Assembly: GCA_016929635.1 (NCBI GenBank)
Contig: JAFGIL010000054.1
Location: 1 to 58,248, forward strand
Reading direction: 5' to 3'
Source: Endomicrobiales bacterium
GTDB lineage: Bacteria; Elusimicrobiota; Endomicrobiia; Endomicrobiales; JAFGIL01
DNA length: 58,248 bases
Part shown: positions 6,967 to 24,357 of the stretch, piece by piece
Layout: the number at the start of each line of letters is the position of its first letter
How positions within the stretch are numbered: the stretch's first letter is position 1
The notes under the pieces: model-generated
Told to the model about the DNA's origin: nothing
The model's input: the letters and a program-made list of their open reading frames with translations, nothing else
The model's database searches: none
Made by a program: the position numbers and the translations under genes

Positions 6967-7216
6967 TAAGTTAGTCGCTTTGCTCCTCGCAAAGATACCT
7001 GATTTGACAAAGATATTAAAAATATTCTACAATTATTTAGCAAATTTTCTTTGACATTTTTAACAAACTGAGGAAGTCCTGTCCCCTTCGATTCGCTTCG
7101 CTCACTCAGGGTAAAACCCGATCACAAAAAATGTCCGATACTTGTGGTGAGCGACTCCGATGGAACATCGGAGGAGTCGAACCATTCAGGCACTGCCCCG
7201 CAACGGTAAATTAACG

Positions 7217-7304
7217 GCAGGAAACAGGGTACAGGGAACAGAGGACAGAAAAAAAGCAATCTTTTAATTCTGTTTTCTGTCCCCTGTTCCCTGTCTCCTG
7301 TCTT
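7217..7304. repeat. Hairpin with heptameric-repeat arms inside riboswitch 1
   Basis: The left arm 7217-7251 reads as five 7-nt units (GCAGGAA, ACAGGGT, ACAGGGA, ACAGAGG, ACAGAAA). The right arm 7270-7304 also reads as five (CTGTTTT, CTGTCCC, CTGTTCC, CTGTCTC, CTGTCTT). The arms pair over more than 20 positions. The hairpin sits exactly between the conserved core and the B12 box of the cobalamin riboswitch, in the position of the peripheral arm. Confidence 0.9.
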
Positions 7305-7363
7305 TATGAGTCCGGTCTACAGTTTGTAAATAATTAACCTTCGAGGGAAGGATTGAGCAATTG

Positions 7364-7502: not shown

Positions 7503-8018
7503 ATGTTATACATTTATACGGGAAACGGGAAGGGAAAAACAACGGCTGCCATCGGGCAGGTGATGCGCTCGCTGGGACGCGGCTGGAGAGTCTGCATTAT
7601 CCAGCTTTTTAAGGGAAAGGAATTCTACGGCGAACAAAAGATGTTTAAAAAGCTCAGAGGCCTGGATTTCTATTCCTTCGCGCCAAAACACCCTTTCTGC
7701 TTCCCGAAAATAAAGAAATCCGCCGTGCAAGCCCAGTGCAGGCAGGCGCTTATTAAACTGGAAAAAATACTCAAGTCAAAAAAACGCCGCAACCTGATAG
7801 TGCTTGAGGAGTTCAACATAGCAGTACGCGACGGCTTTATGAATTTAAGGGAGCTTATTAAAACAATAAGCCTCGCTCCGGATAATACCTATATATTAAT
7901 CACGGGAAGAGGCGCTTCAAAAGAATTGATAGAAAAAGCAGACCTCGTAACCGAGATGAAAGAGATAAAACACCCTTACCGGAAAGGTATAAGGGCAATA
8001 AAGGGGGTAGAATACTGA
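7503..8018 (+). CDS. cobA: Corrinoid adenosyltransferase, CobA/BtuR type
   Basis: A 171-residue P-loop protein that adenosylates cob(I)alamin with ATP. The nucleotide loop GNGKGKTTAAIG (residues 7-18) is the family's inverted-topology P-loop. VLEEFN (about 100-105) and the C-terminal HPYRKGIRA segment agree with CobA/BtuR proteins, usually 170-200 aa. It is the first gene after the cobalamin riboswitch, and its stop codon overlaps the btuF-like start (TGATGA). In a B12 uptake operon it would convert imported corrinoids to the coenzyme form. Confidence 0.93.
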   Translation: MLYIYTGNGKGKTTAAIGQVMRSLGRGWRVCIIQLFKGKEFYGEQKMFKKLRGLDFYSFAPKHPFCFPKIKKSAVQAQCRQALIKLEKILKSKKRRNLIVLEEFNIAVRDGFMNLRELIKTISLAPDNTYILITGRGASKELIEKADLVTEMKEIKHPYRKGIRAIKGVEY

Positions 8019-8956
8019 TGAAAACTCAAAAATCCAAAATCCAAATTCCAATTAAATTCCAAACCCAAAATTCCAAATCAAAAGAAGGAGTGTTCCGTAA
8101 TTGTAACTTCGGATTTATTTGGAATTTGGCATTTGGTATTTGGAATTTATTATTTATTGTTTTATTGCTTCAATCAACTGTATCCCATGCCGGTGAGCCT
8201 AAGCGCATAATATCCCTGGCTCCTTCTATTACCAAAAGCCTTTATGCGCTTGGGGTTGAGGATAAAATCGTAGGCGTTACAACTTACTGCCCCGAGCAGG
8301 CAAAGAGAAAAGAGAAGATCGGCACGCTTTTAAAGCCCAACGCGGAAAAGATACTCTCCCTAAAACCCGACATCATCTTTGCCACTAAAGAGGGGAATGA
8401 CGAAAAATCCGTAAAAAACATCATGGATTTCGGCGTGGAGGTGGTTGTGCTTGACTGCTGCACGAATTTCTCCGATGTCCGCAAAAACTTCCTTGAAATC
8501 GCAAAAAGGGTGAACCGCGAGAAAAAAGCAAAAGAGATAATTAACTCTGCGGAAAAAAGAATCGTCGAAATCCAGAAAAAGCTTGAAGGCAGCGAACCTT
8601 TTAGGGTTTTCTGCGAAATAGGGGCAAGGCCTCTTTTTACCGTAGGCGGGGGAAGCTACATCAATGATATTCTTGTATCTGCGGGATGCATAAATATATT
8701 TTCACATTTAAGAAAAGCATACCCCAGGGTTAACGAGGAAGAAGTGCTCTTGAAAAATCCCGATGTAATCCTGGTTATTACGATGGGCGATGCTACTAAA
8801 AAAGAAAAGAAGCGCTGGAAGAAGTATAAAGTACTCAAGGCTGTCCGGGATAAAAGGGTATACATAGTGGATGAATCCTTTGTTACAACGCCTACACCCG
8901 GCGACTTTGCAAAAGCAGTGGAATATATCTCAAACCTGATTTATTTCAGCAAATAA
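8018..8956 (+). CDS. btuF: Cobalamin ABC transporter substrate-binding protein, BtuF-like
   Basis: A 312-residue periplasmic binding protein of the helical-backbone metal-receptor class. The mature part starts near PKRIISLAPSITKSLYALG and continues with VGVTTYC and the typical LKPDII and GGGSYINDIL segments; family length is about 260-290. Unusually, residues 1-55 are encoded by a repeat: FGFIWNLAFGIWNL comes from tandem ATTTGGN heptamers (8117-8144), and the hydrophobic stretch after it (LLFIVLLLQSTVSHAG) serves as signal peptide with a likely cleavage after SHA. The ATG is in TGATGA with the cobA stop. A GTG at about residue 30 has its SD with no spacing and is an unlikely start. Confidence 0.88.
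   Translation: MKTQKSKIQIPIKFQTQNSKSKEGVFRNCNFGFIWNLAFGIWNLLFIVLLLQSTVSHAGEPKRIISLAPSITKSLYALGVEDKIVGVTTYCPEQAKRKEKIGTLLKPNAEKILSLKPDIIFATKEGNDEKSVKNIMDFGVEVVVLDCCTNFSDVRKNFLEIAKRVNREKKAKEIINSAEKRIVEIQKKLEGSEPFRVFCEIGARPLFTVGGGSYINDILVSAGCINIFSHLRKAYPRVNEEEVLLKNPDVILVITMGDATKKEKKRWKKYKVLKAVRDKRVYIVDESFVTTPTPGDFAKAVEYISNLIYFSK
8026..8151. repeat. Heptamer-based inverted repeat within btuF
   Basis: The right arm is four clean 7-nt units, ATTTGGA, ATTTGGC, ATTTGGT, ATTTGGA (8117-8144), plus a weaker fifth. The left arm carries the complement as TCCAAAA, TCCAAAT, TCCAATT (8033-8053) and further AATTCCAAA-type units to about 8079. The element is fully translated as part of the BtuF N-terminus. 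Confidence 0.85.
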
Positions 8957-11040: not shown

Positions 11041-11826
11041 ATGGCGATTTTGGATATTCAATCATTAACCTGCGGATATGACGGAAAAGATATCGTAAGG
11101 GACGTGACCTTTCAGGCACGGCAGGGTAGCTTCCTCGGTATAATCGGGCCTAACGGAGCGGGGAAAACCACGATGTTCAGGGCTATTACAGGCATTCTGA
11201 AACCGAAAAGCGGAAATATTTTTTTTAGGGATAAAGACATCTCAGCGTTTTCGCGCTATGAGGTTGCAAAGCACGTCTCAACCATGCCGCAGCTGCTTGA
11301 TACGCCGTTTTCTTTTACGGTCTTTGAGTTCGTCCTGATGGGCAGGTTTCCTCATTTAAGAAGATGGGAGAAACCGAAAAAGCACGACATTGATATCATA
11401 GAGGAAAGCCTTGCAATCACAGATACCCGGGAGCTGAAAGACAGGAGGATAAACGAAATCTCCGGCGGAGAGAAACAAAGGGTGATCCTCGCACAGGCCC
11501 TGGCGCAGGAGCCGGAACTGCTTCTTCTGGATGAGCCCATAGCCCACCTGGATATCGGCCATCAGGTACACATTCTTGATTTGATAAAAAAACTGAACAG
11601 GGAAAAAAACCTGACAGTTGTGATGATACTCCACGATTTAAACATGGCAGGCGAGTACTGCGACGAGCTGATACTGATGAACGAAGGCACAATATATAAA
11701 TCAGGCGCGCCGTATGAAGTGCTGACTTACGAAAACATAGAAAAGGTCTACAAGACAATAGTTGTGGTAAAGGAAAACCCAATATCGAAAAAGCCGCACG
11801 TTGTCCTGGTCTCGAATAAATCATAA
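11041..11826 (+). CDS. btuD: Cobalamin ABC transporter ATPase, BtuD-like
   Basis: A 261-residue ABC ATPase. Walker A GPNGAGKT (36-43), signature SGGEKQ (141-146), Walker B ELLLLDEP (159-166) and the H-loop in MILHDLNMAG (about 196-205) are all intact. It belongs to the FecE/BtuD branch that pairs with FecCD permeases. AAGGAG sits 11 bases before the ATG. It is the last gene of the riboswitch-controlled operon and is followed by two G+C-rich palindromes. Confidence 0.93.
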   Translation: MAILDIQSLTCGYDGKDIVRDVTFQARQGSFLGIIGPNGAGKTTMFRAITGILKPKSGNIFFRDKDISAFSRYEVAKHVSTMPQLLDTPFSFTVFEFVLMGRFPHLRRWEKPKKHDIDIIEESLAITDTRELKDRRINEISGGEKQRVILAQALAQEPELLLLDEPIAHLDIGHQVHILDLIKKLNREKNLTVVMILHDLNMAGEYCDELILMNEGTIYKSGAPYEVLTYENIEKVYKTIVVVKENPISKKPHVVLVSNKS

Positions 11827-11832
11827 TCCGTG

Positions 11833-11873
11833 CCCGTTCCCGGAACGGGCCCAGGGCCCGTTCCCGGAACGGG
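11833..11873. repeat. Double G+C-rich palindrome after btuD
   Basis: CCCGTTCCCGGAACGGG occurs at 11833-11849 and again at 11857-11873, a 24-base offset. The same doublet with the same offset is at 17520-17560. It could stall or terminate transcription but has no T-run. Confidence 0.85.
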
Positions 11874-12023
11874 CAGAAATATAAAACACGGAACTATTAT
11901 GGGTAAAAAGGAGGTGAAAATTACTGTAAAACCCGGGTTCTTTTACATATACATAAAATTCTCTGAATAAATAAAGGAAGTGAAGGTGAGATCCCTTCCA
12001 TTGCCCAGCAACGGTAATCTTTT

Positions 12024-12457
12024 TAGACCAGAGACAGGAGACGAGAGACAAGAGTAAATAAGGAACAAAAATGAGAGATTATAGAAACATAAAAGCATTT
12101 CAACATGCAGATAGATTGGTGCTAGAAATATACCAATTAACAAAATATTTCCCAAAAGAAAAAACGTATGGTTTGGTATCACAAATAAGAAGAGCTTCCG
12201 TATCTGTACCAACCAACATTGTTGAAGGCTCAAAAAGAAAGCATGCCAAAGAATATTTAAATTTTCTATATTTATCAAAAAGTTCACTTGCTGAAGTAGA
12301 ATATCTGTTAGATTTGCCCAGAAAACTAGATTTTATAAAAGAAACTGAATACAAAAAAACAGATTCTATTGTCCAGGAAACTTCTAAAACACTTTACGGT
12401 TTGATAAATACTATAGAAAAAAATCTCTCTGGTCTCTAGTCTCCCGTCTCTAGTCTA
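12024..12457. mobile_element. IVS-like element: heptamer-arm hairpin with a protein gene in its loop
   Basis: The arms 12024-12054 and 12427-12457 are 31 bases each and complementary at 27. The four mismatches fall exactly seven bases apart, because each arm is a tandem array of AGACNAG-type heptamers. The loop holds the four-helix-bundle gene, and its last codons and TAG stop are in the right arm. Insertion-like stem-loops with this protein family are known as intervening sequences (IVS) in 23S rRNA; here the host is a riboswitch arm. Confidence 0.82.
12071..12439 (+). CDS. Four-helix-bundle protein of the 23S rRNA IVS (S23) family
   Basis: 122 residues with the family's conserved pattern: ADRLVLEIYQLTKYFPKEKTYGL (start of the bundle), QIRRASVSVPTNIVEG (about 38-53), then YLNFLYLSKSSLAEVEYLL. 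Such proteins are encoded in 23S rRNA intervening sequences and also occur singly; relatives (Avd) bind nucleic acid in diversity-generating retroelements. The molecular role is unknown. The gene lies wholly inside the btuB riboswitch, is more A+T-rich than its surroundings and ends within the right hairpin arm (NLSGL, stop). There is only a weak SD (AAGGAAC). Confidence 0.9.
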   Translation: MRDYRNIKAFQHADRLVLEIYQLTKYFPKEKTYGLVSQIRRASVSVPTNIVEGSKRKHAKEYLNFLYLSKSSLAEVEYLLDLPRKLDFIKETEYKKTDSIVQETSKTLYGLINTIEKNLSGL

Positions 12458-12517
12458 ATTAAAGGAATCCGGACGATTATTTAATTCAGAAAGTATTCTC
12501 TAGGGAGGAGAAATAAA

Positions 12518-14377
12518 ATGAGCAGAAAAATAATAAATACAATTCTGGCAGTTTTAGTTTTACAATCAGCAGTGTGTTTCGCACAGGCGCAGGAAGACGA
12601 GGTCTTTTTGAGCCTGACCAAAAGGGCGGAGTCTTTGAAGGACCTGCCCACAAACGTATCGATTGTCACAAAAGAGCAGATAGAGCAGTTAAACGAGTAC
12701 GAGCTCGGAAAAATCCTTGAGCAGGAAGCGGGATTAAACCCGAGCGAAAGAGGCACCGCAGGCTCCTCAAGCAGCCTTATGATAAGGGGCTCAACGGCAG
12801 AGCAGGTGCTTGTCTTAGTCGACGGAATAAGGGTAAATGACTTATCCCTCGGCCAGGCAAACCTTGCCTCTATCCCGATAGACAACATAGAACGCATAGA
12901 GATTATCCGCGGCTCGGCCTCGGCGATTTACGGGGCGAGCGCTTTCGGAGGAGTGGTTAACATAATCACCAAAAAAGCAAAGGAAGGCATGCCTGTCACA
13001 AACCTCGGGATTTACTACGGCGCCTTCGGCACGCAGCAGCAGAAGCTCGATTTCTCAAGGAAAATCAAACAAACGTCGATTGTCCTTACAGGCGCAAAAA
13101 GTTATGCGGAAGGCTGGAGGGAAAACTCCGAATACGAAAAGCTCGATATTTTCGGCCGGTTGGGCTATGAAACCCGGCAGTTCGGGATATTCGATTTGTC
13201 AGCTTCGTACTTGGACAGCGATGCAGGAGTTCCCGGTTCCGGGCCGACTCTTGATAACTATGACGGAGTAGCCGAAAAACAGGCGTCCACCCCGAACGCA
13301 AACCAGACCGAGATAAACAAAAACGTAAATTTAAATCACGAATATATATGGCAGGACAAAACAATAAAAACAACCCTGTACAATACATTGAACGAGAGGC
13401 GGTATACAGATAATCCATCCTCTTTTCCTTCTGATTCTATTTACGATTCCAGGATAAAAGGCATGGAACTTCAGGTTGATGTACTCCAACAGCTGATTGT
13501 GGGTGCTGAATTATGGAAGGAAGAATTTACCTCTACTGATAAATTAACCGAAACAAGCATAATCGTTAAATCACGTACCAACTCGGCCGGTTACATACAA
13601 TATAAATATATGTATGAGAAGTTCAAAGTTATTCCAAGCCTGCGGTTTGATAACAACTCAGTATTTGGCAGTGTTTTCGCACCAAGGTTAAGCGTAATAT
13701 ATAAAGCTAATGATAATATTAAACTTTCTGTAAATTCTGGTAAGACGTGGCGCGCTCCCACTTTTAATGAACTCTATTACAATGATATGTGGAATGCATC
13801 AGATCCAAAGCTCAAACCCGAAGAAGGTATTTCTTCGGATATAGGAATTGAGTATAGGCAAAATAAATTAAAAAGCGGGATTACTTTATTTCTAACAGAA
13901 TCAACAAATCTTATCAGCTGGCCTTATGACTCTACTACAATGAAATATACAGCTAAAAGTATTGGGAAATCCAGACAGTCGGGAGCGGAATTTTCGCTTA
14001 AACACAAAATAATTTCCGGTTTAATTCATACTCTCAACTACACATATCTTTGGGCGGTAGACACCGAAAATAACAGAGTTCTAAACTACAGGCCGTATAA
14101 CACGGTCAACTACACGGTAACATACATGCCTTTTGTTACTACAAGATTAAATGCTGCTGCCAAGTACGTCAGCCAGCAGGACACATGGAACTCTGTAACG
14201 CCTCAACTGCCCGAATACACGGTAGTTGACCTAAGCGTTTCACAGAAGCTCGGGCCGAGCACTGAGCTCTGGGTCAAGGCAAACAACGTGCTGGATGAAA
14301 AATACCAGACACGGCTCGGATATCCCTTGCCCGGTGTGTTCTACTCATTCGGAGCAAACATCCGCTTTTTGAATTAA
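12518..14377 (+). CDS. btuB: TonB-dependent cobalamin receptor, BtuB-like
   Basis: A 619-residue outer-membrane receptor, close to E. coli BtuB in length. The signal peptide (residues 1 to about 26) ends in AQAQ. The plug has VSIVTKEQIEQL, LMIRGSTAEQVLVLVDGIRVND, IERIEIIRGSASAIYGASAFGGVVNIIT, then the barrel with APTFNELYYNDMW and a C-terminal strand ending in Phe-Leu-Asn. The good SD (GGGAGGAG) and upstream riboswitch support B12 as ligand. The base composition changes within the gene: bases about 13400-14050 are clearly richer in A+T than both ends, consistent with a recombined barrel section. Confidence 0.92.
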   Translation: MSRKIINTILAVLVLQSAVCFAQAQEDEVFLSLTKRAESLKDLPTNVSIVTKEQIEQLNEYELGKILEQEAGLNPSERGTAGSSSSLMIRGSTAEQVLVLVDGIRVNDLSLGQANLASIPIDNIERIEIIRGSASAIYGASAFGGVVNIITKKAKEGMPVTNLGIYYGAFGTQQQKLDFSRKIKQTSIVLTGAKSYAEGWRENSEYEKLDIFGRLGYETRQFGIFDLSASYLDSDAGVPGSGPTLDNYDGVAEKQASTPNANQTEINKNVNLNHEYIWQDKTIKTTLYNTLNERRYTDNPSSFPSDSIYDSRIKGMELQVDVLQQLIVGAELWKEEFTSTDKLTETSIIVKSRTNSAGYIQYKYMYEKFKVIPSLRFDNNSVFGSVFAPRLSVIYKANDNIKLSVNSGKTWRAPTFNELYYNDMWNASDPKLKPEEGISSDIGIEYRQNKLKSGITLFLTESTNLISWPYDSTTMKYTAKSIGKSRQSGAEFSLKHKIISGLIHTLNYTYLWAVDTENNRVLNYRPYNTVNYTVTYMPFVTTRLNAAAKYVSQQDTWNSVTPQLPEYTVVDLSVSQKLGPSTELWVKANNVLDEKYQTRLGYPLPGVFYSFGANIRFLN

Positions 14378-23472: not shown

Positions 23473-24285
23473 GTGGAAATACACGAACTGGAGCAAATAT
23501 CCCTGCGAATAAGAAAGAATATCATTGAAATGCTGTGCCAGGCAGGCTCGGGACACCCGGGAGGAAGCCTTTCCTCAGTAGACCTTTTAGTATCACTATA
23601 CTATACACAGATGAATTTTGACCCAAAGAACCCAAAGGACCCCAAAAGGGATTACTTTGTGCTTTCAAAGGGGCACGGCTGCCCCACGTTATACAGCATA
23701 CTGGCCGAATACGGATGCATGCATGAAAAAGAGCTCTGCACCCTCCGCCAGTACGGCAGCAAGCTGCAGGGGCACCCCGGCATGGACAAAGGAATACCGG
23801 GGATAGAGGTTTCAACCGGCTCCCTGGGATTCGGGCTTTCGGTTGCAGTCGGGATGGCAATAGGCTCAAAAATGGCAAAAAGGCCGAACAGGGTGTACGC
23901 CCTTATGGGAGACGGCGAGCTGCAGGAAGGCTCGATCTGGGAAGCTGTAATGTCTGCCGGGCATTTCAAACTTGACAACCTGTGCGGCATGGTTGACTGG
24001 AACCAGCTGCAGATTGACGGAAAAGTGGAAGACGTTATGGGTATTGACCCGCTGGTAGATAAATTCCGTTCTTTCAGATGGGAACCAATCGAAATCGACG
24101 GCCACGACTTCAAACAGATTATCGACGCATTTAAAAAAGCAAAAGCGACAAAAGGGAAACCGACCGTGATACTGGCTCATACGACAAAAGGCAAAGGCGT
24201 TTCATATATGGAAAACGTATGTGACTGGCACGGCAAAACGCCTTCACAGGAACAGGCTGACAAAGCATTAAACGAGCTGAAGTAG
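23473..24285 (+). CDS. Transketolase, N-terminal subunit
   Basis: 270 residues, the thiamine-diphosphate-binding half of a split transketolase. GSGHPGGSLSSVDLLVSLYY, LSKGHGCPTLYSIL, GHPGMDKGIPGIEVSTGSLG and the GDGELQEGS cofactor motif with downstream Asn-Gln are visible. It starts with GTG, with GGAGG five bases upstream. The C-terminal subunit follows after a gap of 72 bases that holds a heptamer-repeat hairpin. Together they interconvert pentose and triose/hexose phosphates. Confidence 0.93.
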   Translation: MEIHELEQISLRIRKNIIEMLCQAGSGHPGGSLSSVDLLVSLYYTQMNFDPKNPKDPKRDYFVLSKGHGCPTLYSILAEYGCMHEKELCTLRQYGSKLQGHPGMDKGIPGIEVSTGSLGFGLSVAVGMAIGSKMAKRPNRVYALMGDGELQEGSIWEAVMSAGHFKLDNLCGMVDWNQLQIDGKVEDVMGIDPLVDKFRSFRWEPIEIDGHDFKQIIDAFKKAKATKGKPTVILAHTTKGKGVSYMENVCDWHGKTPSQEQADKALNELK

Positions 24286-24340
24286 AGAGTAAAGAGTAGA
24301 GAGAAAGACTCTCTCCGCTTGCTGCTCTCTGCTCGCTACT
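24281..24340. repeat. Hairpin with heptameric arms between the transketolase genes
   Basis: The left arm 24281-24308 is AGTAGAG, AGTAAAG, AGTAGAG, AGAAAGA. The right arm 24313-24340 is CTCCGCT, TGCTGCT, CTCTGCT, CGCTACT. The arms are partly complementary with G-U pairs. The left arm includes the stop codon of the N-terminal subunit. Confidence 0.7.
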
Positions 24341-24357
24341 TAAAAAGAGAGGTATAT

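Follow-up and report, generated by a model that had tools for sequence, protein, structure and literature searches.

A PF05635 element within the P6 arm of a cobalamin riboswitch upstream of btuB in an Endomicrobiales bacterium

How can a riboswitch leader hold a whole protein-coding gene between its two halves, and is it then still a switch? The question is raised by the btuB leader in the window, as we call the entire 58,248-nucleotide stretch of Endomicrobiales bacterium DNA analysed here (GenBank assembly GCA_016929635.1, contig JAFGIL010000054.1), in which a sequence-only reading had proposed a cobalamin riboswitch interrupted by a complete S23/IVS gene.

The cobalamin riboswitch in front of btuB

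The leader belongs to a B12-uptake cluster with the gene order cobA, btuF, btuC, btuD and, last, btuB, an order that is identical in a relative of the same family. These gene names rest on best match and context because family scores mostly fall below curated cut-offs; btuB (12518–14377, + strand), the TonB-dependent B12 receptor, matches TIGR01779 best (E=3.9e-73), again short of the curated cut-off. A GC-rich nested palindrome lies between the end of btuD and the btuB leader (11830–11876). Directly before btuB, positions 11962–12513 follow a Cbl-II-like cobalamin riboswitch layout, running from the outer helix through the core, P6 CGG, 448 nt, P6 CCG, the outer helix again and a ribosome-site hairpin to the ATG, with every feature on the + strand. 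The 5′ strand of the outer helix, UCUGAAUAAAUAA (11962–11974), pairs with 12477–12490 in an unconstrained fold, and none of 2,000 shuffles was equally stable. The 5′ half of the conserved core (11975–12017) is a motif common to 28 relatives and a partial match to the covariance model R1 described below; it ends in the core sequence GCCCAGCAACGGTAA (12003–12017), with an L5-like loop CCC at about 12004–12006 and the P6 CGG at 12012–12014. The 3′ half (12466–12490), identified from the fold and from comparison with the same-family relative, consists of a B12-box-like segment, AATCCGGACGA (12466–12476), with the P6 CCG at 12469–12471, and the 3′ strand of the outer helix (12477–12490). Next comes a P13-like hairpin, UUCUC-UAGGGAG-GAGAA (12496–12512), which is present in the fold and almost unchanged in the same-family relative. 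The btuB ribosome-binding site lies in the loop and 3′ strand of this hairpin, whose loop GGG can face the L5 CCC, and L5–L13 pairing is the known switch of cobalamin riboswitches (PMC10653944). The unconstrained minimum-energy fold of 11960–12525 contains the outer helix, the CGG/CCG stem, a long hairpin and the 3′ hairpin at the ribosome site (z=-4.68). The sequence-only reading had begun the riboswitch at 11977, ended the core at 12017 and placed the B12-box-like segment about 450 bases further on; the spacing held and is refined to a box at 12466–12476, 448 nt from the core, while the start extends further 5′ to 11962.

Identification of this leader required a model other than that of Rfam. 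RF00174 had no match in the window and none genome-wide at E≤0.001, the shorter riboswitch at 7057–7335 included, and the unspliced window does not meet the RF00174 gathering score (31.5 bits). RF00174 is blind to the cobalamin riboswitch subtype of this genome and was dropped as a yardstick, and we therefore built a model from relatives. Riboswitch cores of the GCAACGGTAA type were gathered across the phylum, and 28 short-armed ones were aligned to give covariance model R1. Double-sided changes occur at 13 of the 19 consensus pairs in this alignment; the covariation cells count sequences, not events, and conservation of the core holds by construction because the core motif served for selection. 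Model R1 matched the second cobalamin riboswitch of the window, upstream of cobA (cobalamin adenosyltransferase; 7057–7335, + strand; 48.9 bits, E=4.8e-11), as well as the btuB orthologue leader of the same-family relative (46.2 bits, E=2.8e-10) and the other homologous leader of that relative (63.0 bits). On the window btuB leader it matched the 5′ half alone (11968–12042; 15.3 bits, E=0.18), and the halves, taken one at a time, reached covariance scores of 7.4 and 1.5 bits, neither significant. The sequence-only reading had predicted that the score would rise once the insert was removed, and a rise was seen with a sequence profile, not with an RF00174 run: the leader scored 21.9 bits with the insert removed, 16.4 bits unspliced and 15.7 bits for the 5′ half alone, with any match at all in 21 of 1,000 control shuffles (best, 4.8 bits). 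Between the outer helix of the window (CUGAAUAAAUAA/UUAUUUAAUUCAG) and that of the same-family relative (CUGUAUAGAUAA/UUGUCUAUGACAG) there are two compensatory double-sided changes, and the pairs are kept. Rfam matches below cut-off (microRNA families, DUF2693 and AdoCbl-II at 15.7 bits) were discounted as chance or partial. The core, the P6 CGG/CCG pair, the covarying outer helix and the position before a B12 gene show, from sequence alone, that the host is a Cbl-II-like cobalamin riboswitch of the phylum's subtype; corrinoid binding is inferred. The earlier proposal of a cobalamin riboswitch host is supported by the model of relatives and by the spliced profile score, but not by RF00174, and direct support for the window btuB copy comes only from its sequence-profile score and its homology to one relative.

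The inserted element and its heptad-repeat arms

The insert is bounded by a left arm (12019–12054, + strand) of heptad repeat GAGACNR, with AG at 12025, 12032, 12039, 12046 and 12053, and a right arm (12427–12464, + strand), a heptad repeat with five CT at 7-nt spacing. Enclosed by these arms is an intact gene for a 122-aa four-helix-bundle protein of the S23 / 23S_rRNA_IVP type (12071–12439, + strand), which matches PF05635 (E=5e-34; 117.1 bits against a cut-off of 33.8) and TIGR02436 (E=8e-33) and whose stop codon TAG (12437–12439) falls within the right arm. The arm duplex has an energy of -43.0 kcal/mol, compared to -29.7 for the best of 2,000 shuffles, and the four mismatches in the ungapped arm alignment all lie at one phase of the 7-nt repeat. 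An imperfect 31-bp hairpin around a complete S23/IVS gene, with the stop in the right arm, had been claimed from the start; duplex energy and family matches uphold it, and its imperfection is now placed at a single repeat phase. With a PF05635 gene above cut-off and enclosing complementary arms of about 30 nt, the insert qualifies as an IVS/S23 element. It does not sit in 23S rRNA, as the Rfam scan gave no rRNA match in the window and the neighbours are B12-uptake genes, and the same scan gave no group I or group II intron match in the window. Identity with Avd was rejected on scores below cut-offs (30.2 bits against 80 for NF033474; 25.6 against 40 for PF22296). Evidence of the same kind as for the host shows the insert to be a genuine PF05635 element between inverted heptad-repeat arms that bring the riboswitch halves together, and the anatomy of leader and insert as a whole is very probably as described.

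The element sits at the end of the P6 arm, a stretch typically about 18 nt long among the 48 riboswitches compared and 448 nt long in the window btuB riboswitch. The P6 accessory region of cobalamin riboswitches is highly variable in length (PMC9600662), and tolerance of an insert here is therefore plausible, as the sequence-only reading had supposed; its further suggestion of preserved ligand binding remains an inference. All four riboswitches of the window's family have arms of 94–448 nt with heptad hairpins, and four riboswitches outside the family carry inserts of 68–104 nt without a 7-nt repeat. Among the four same-family riboswitches the PF05635 gene occurs only in the window btuB copy; the second window riboswitch and both riboswitches of the same-family relative have ORF-less heptad hairpins in the same arm (95 nt in the btuB one of the relative). 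In the cobA riboswitch this hairpin spans 7217–7305 and has runs of five AG at 7-nt spacing (AG/7) in both arms. No further PF05635 gene inside a cobalamin riboswitch was found among the other PF05635 loci fetched, and none was evident by eye when PF05635 genes were set against core-motif matches in 295 genomes of the phylum, a comparison that covered only part of the PF05635 matches. The evidence base is accordingly one genome with a gene-bearing riboswitch and one same-family relative. We also observed a further long insert ahead of the core in the P4/P5 part of the cobA riboswitch (7057–7200), and an ORF-less heptad hairpin of unit TTTGGNA (8014–8166) with which the btuF reading frame begins at its 5′ end; this hairpin has no AG/7 runs and may represent another class. 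At locus L087 (215–1100), two cobalamin riboswitches lie 800 nt apart on one contig, the second with a 73-nt arm of period 8.

Arms of a similar kind are found at the other PF05635 copies of this genome and its order, mostly built from another repeat unit; several of these copies are located in tRNA gene spacers, and three of the six copies in the genome contain an in-frame stop. We sampled eighty further PF05635 loci from GTDB genomes of many phyla and found that 47 of 76 element flanks contain a tract of 7-nt periodicity, compared to 6 of 73 control flanks 790–930 nt away. The best arm period was 7 in 72 and 8 in 11 of the 88 own-order and GTDB loci with inverted arms. Phase alignment on the sense strand of the gene yielded a left-arm unit TNAGTND at 3.11 bits, against at most 2.47 in permuted controls. 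AG/7 runs of at least four units were present in 38 of 98 left arms, against 0–6 at other spacings and 4 of 98 for opposite-strand CT; among long runs five units were commonest (19) and six rare (4), and four-unit runs were also common. A count over 318 kb of the genome gave 18 AG/7 runs with at least five units, several of them forming both arms of ORF-less hairpins, compared to 0, 0, 1 and 0 at spacings 5, 6, 8 and 9. The AG pattern was first noticed in four riboswitch arms; the 98-locus and 318-kb counts were made later, with the window's own arms among those counted. Among long runs, the number of units per arm peaks at five, but this is no rule (median tract about 31 nt), and more than half of PF05635 elements lack a clean run of at least four AG. 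An Rfam scan detected no host RNA at the element in 40 loci of other phyla.

The idea that heptad hairpins are confined to the B12 genes of the window proved wrong, as another short hairpin with 7-nt repeat arms occurs outside the cluster at about 24282–24341. In two genomes of the order (loci L065, 1880–2345, and L077, 1930–2345) a tRNA gene interrupted by a group I intron lies directly downstream of a PF05635 element. At locus L233 (9545–9680) an ORF-less hairpin precedes a CTP-synthase-like gene, and its unit TTTGATT fits the Nostoc P6b class I motif TDNGATT.

Fate of the switch and a possible role of the arms

The explanation we consider likely, in the absence of RNA or binding data, is that a mobile IVS/S23 element has inserted at the tip of the P6 accessory arm in the cobalamin riboswitch of btuB and that the switch was kept. 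The aptamer would still fold and bind corrinoid, and L5–L13 pairing would then hide the btuB ribosome-binding site; the element would ride as a passenger, with its protein made from the same leader RNA, and RNase III may cut the arm to leave a split but paired riboswitch. We favour a functional riboswitch with a passenger because its paired halves are conserved, the arm tolerates extra sequence and the stretch from the gene to btuB holds no convincing promoter. Continued regulation by the riboswitch is likewise probable, with ligand binding and a single transcript both inferred.

The best-surviving rival is a sub-case of this explanation, a split riboswitch in which RNase III cuts the arm and the pieces, held by the outer helix and P6, still switch. 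RNase III could plausibly cleave an arm of about 31 positions with one mismatch per seven, and it excises the Coxiella IVS, whose stem is 28 bp long (PMC4990558). Against this, no RNase III domain (PF00636, PF14622) was found in the 90% complete assembly; PF00636 is present in all five relatives searched, and the absence is probably an assembly gap. Without RNA data we lean slightly against a split. A second rival, that the insertion broke the riboswitch and left btuB uncontrolled or driven from elsewhere, with the flanking motifs a fossil, perhaps of a very recent insertion, appears unlikely. In its favour are the weak covariance match of the window btuB copy (15.3 bits, E=0.18) and the in-frame stops in half of the genome's PF05635 copies, which indicate that elements do decay in this genome. 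However, the outer helix, P6 CGG/CCG, L5 CCC and the P13/ribosome-site hairpin are all retained, the structure persists in the same-family relative, whose corresponding arm carries a 95-nt hairpin, and the only promoter-like site on the + strand of 11750–12530 is weak and lies inside the PF05635 gene (12243–12272). An assembly or binning chimera joining the element to the btuB leader is conceivable for a draft of 77 contigs but very unlikely, as the sequences flanking the insert pair as the outer helix, both riboswitches of the same-family relative bear hairpins of this style in that arm, and gene order is conserved on both sides of the insert.

The arms permit a tentative proposal for the S23 protein. 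The S23 protein from Xanthomonas forms a homopentamer (PMC4990558), and the two structures of solved homologues that we found, 2gsc and 2rld, have five chains each. TRAP forms a ring that reads repeats, one per subunit. The match between five AG heptads in an arm and five subunits in the protein suggests a comparable ring. In it the element protein, a homopentameric ring in solved relatives, would bind the arms with one heptad per subunit and would so recognise RNA or DNA of the element itself as well as of copies that lack an ORF. On this view, ORF-less hairpins built from this kind of repeat would be non-autonomous copies. This TRAP-like binding is a hypothesis without proof or binding data, possible and no more, and the count of five may equally reflect a preferred arm length. 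The self-protein–RNA interaction raised by the sequence-only reading gains indirect support from the heptad arms, and no contact is shown. One reverse-transcriptase gene is present elsewhere in the genome, and nothing ties it to the element. A bolder reading, offered as one joint claim that remains conjectural, is that S23/IVP rings read five-AG-heptad arms and move or protect hairpins both with and without the gene, that such hairpins settle where arms of structured RNAs tolerate them (rRNA helices, intron P6b, riboswitch P6), and that ring binding could open P6 and so couple the element protein to B12 sensing.

Relation to known systems

The closest known systems are the IVSs with S23 genes in 23S rRNA of Coxiella, Leptospira and Xanthomonas, which share with the window element a length of about 430 nt, a PF05635 gene, ~30-bp arms and insertion into a helix of structured RNA that tolerates it; heptameric GACAGAT repeats are likewise present before the gene of the Coxiella IVS (PMC4990558). 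The window element differs in being hosted by a riboswitch arm within an mRNA leader, in having an intact gene that has a plausible ribosome site, and in the ORF-less hairpins of the same style that occur in sister riboswitches. PF05635 genes in rRNA insertions of CPR bacteria are already in the literature. Within the literature searched, of which coverage was partial, we found neither an IVS/S23 element in a riboswitch nor a general account of heptad arms, so the statement of the sequence-only reading that no riboswitch host was known met no counterexample. What is new is the riboswitch as host to a known IVS/S23 element type. Known cobalamin riboswitches with a variable P6 accessory region share the core, the outer helix and P13/L13 at the ribosome site with the window leader, whereas the window copy has a protein-coding element, without precedent in the literature searched.

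More distant likenesses concern the protein and the repeats. Avd of diversity-generating retroelements is a homologous four-helix bundle (PMC10053308); the window protein matches Avd models weakly, and no reverse-transcriptase gene adjoins it in the leader. The resemblance to TRAP is one of idea only, a ring protein and evenly spaced AG-containing repeats, and TRAP has an unrelated fold, 11 subunits and single-stranded sites. P6b of the cyanobacterial (Nostoc) tRNA-Leu group I intron is a peripheral stem of 7-nt repeats whose classes have been repeatedly replaced wholesale by one another (PMC4476775). Its motif class NNTGAGT fits the PF05635 arm consensus; its loop holds no gene, and a tie to PF05635 elements is an inference. 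Little is understood of what bacterial IVSs do biologically (PMC4990558), and here an IVS resides in a regulatory RNA, the function of which is open to a simple reporter assay. The heptad arms supply a testable guess at the role of the S23 ring, new to our knowledge, and tie together the IVSs of rRNA, the P6b repeats of the Nostoc intron and the arms of riboswitches.
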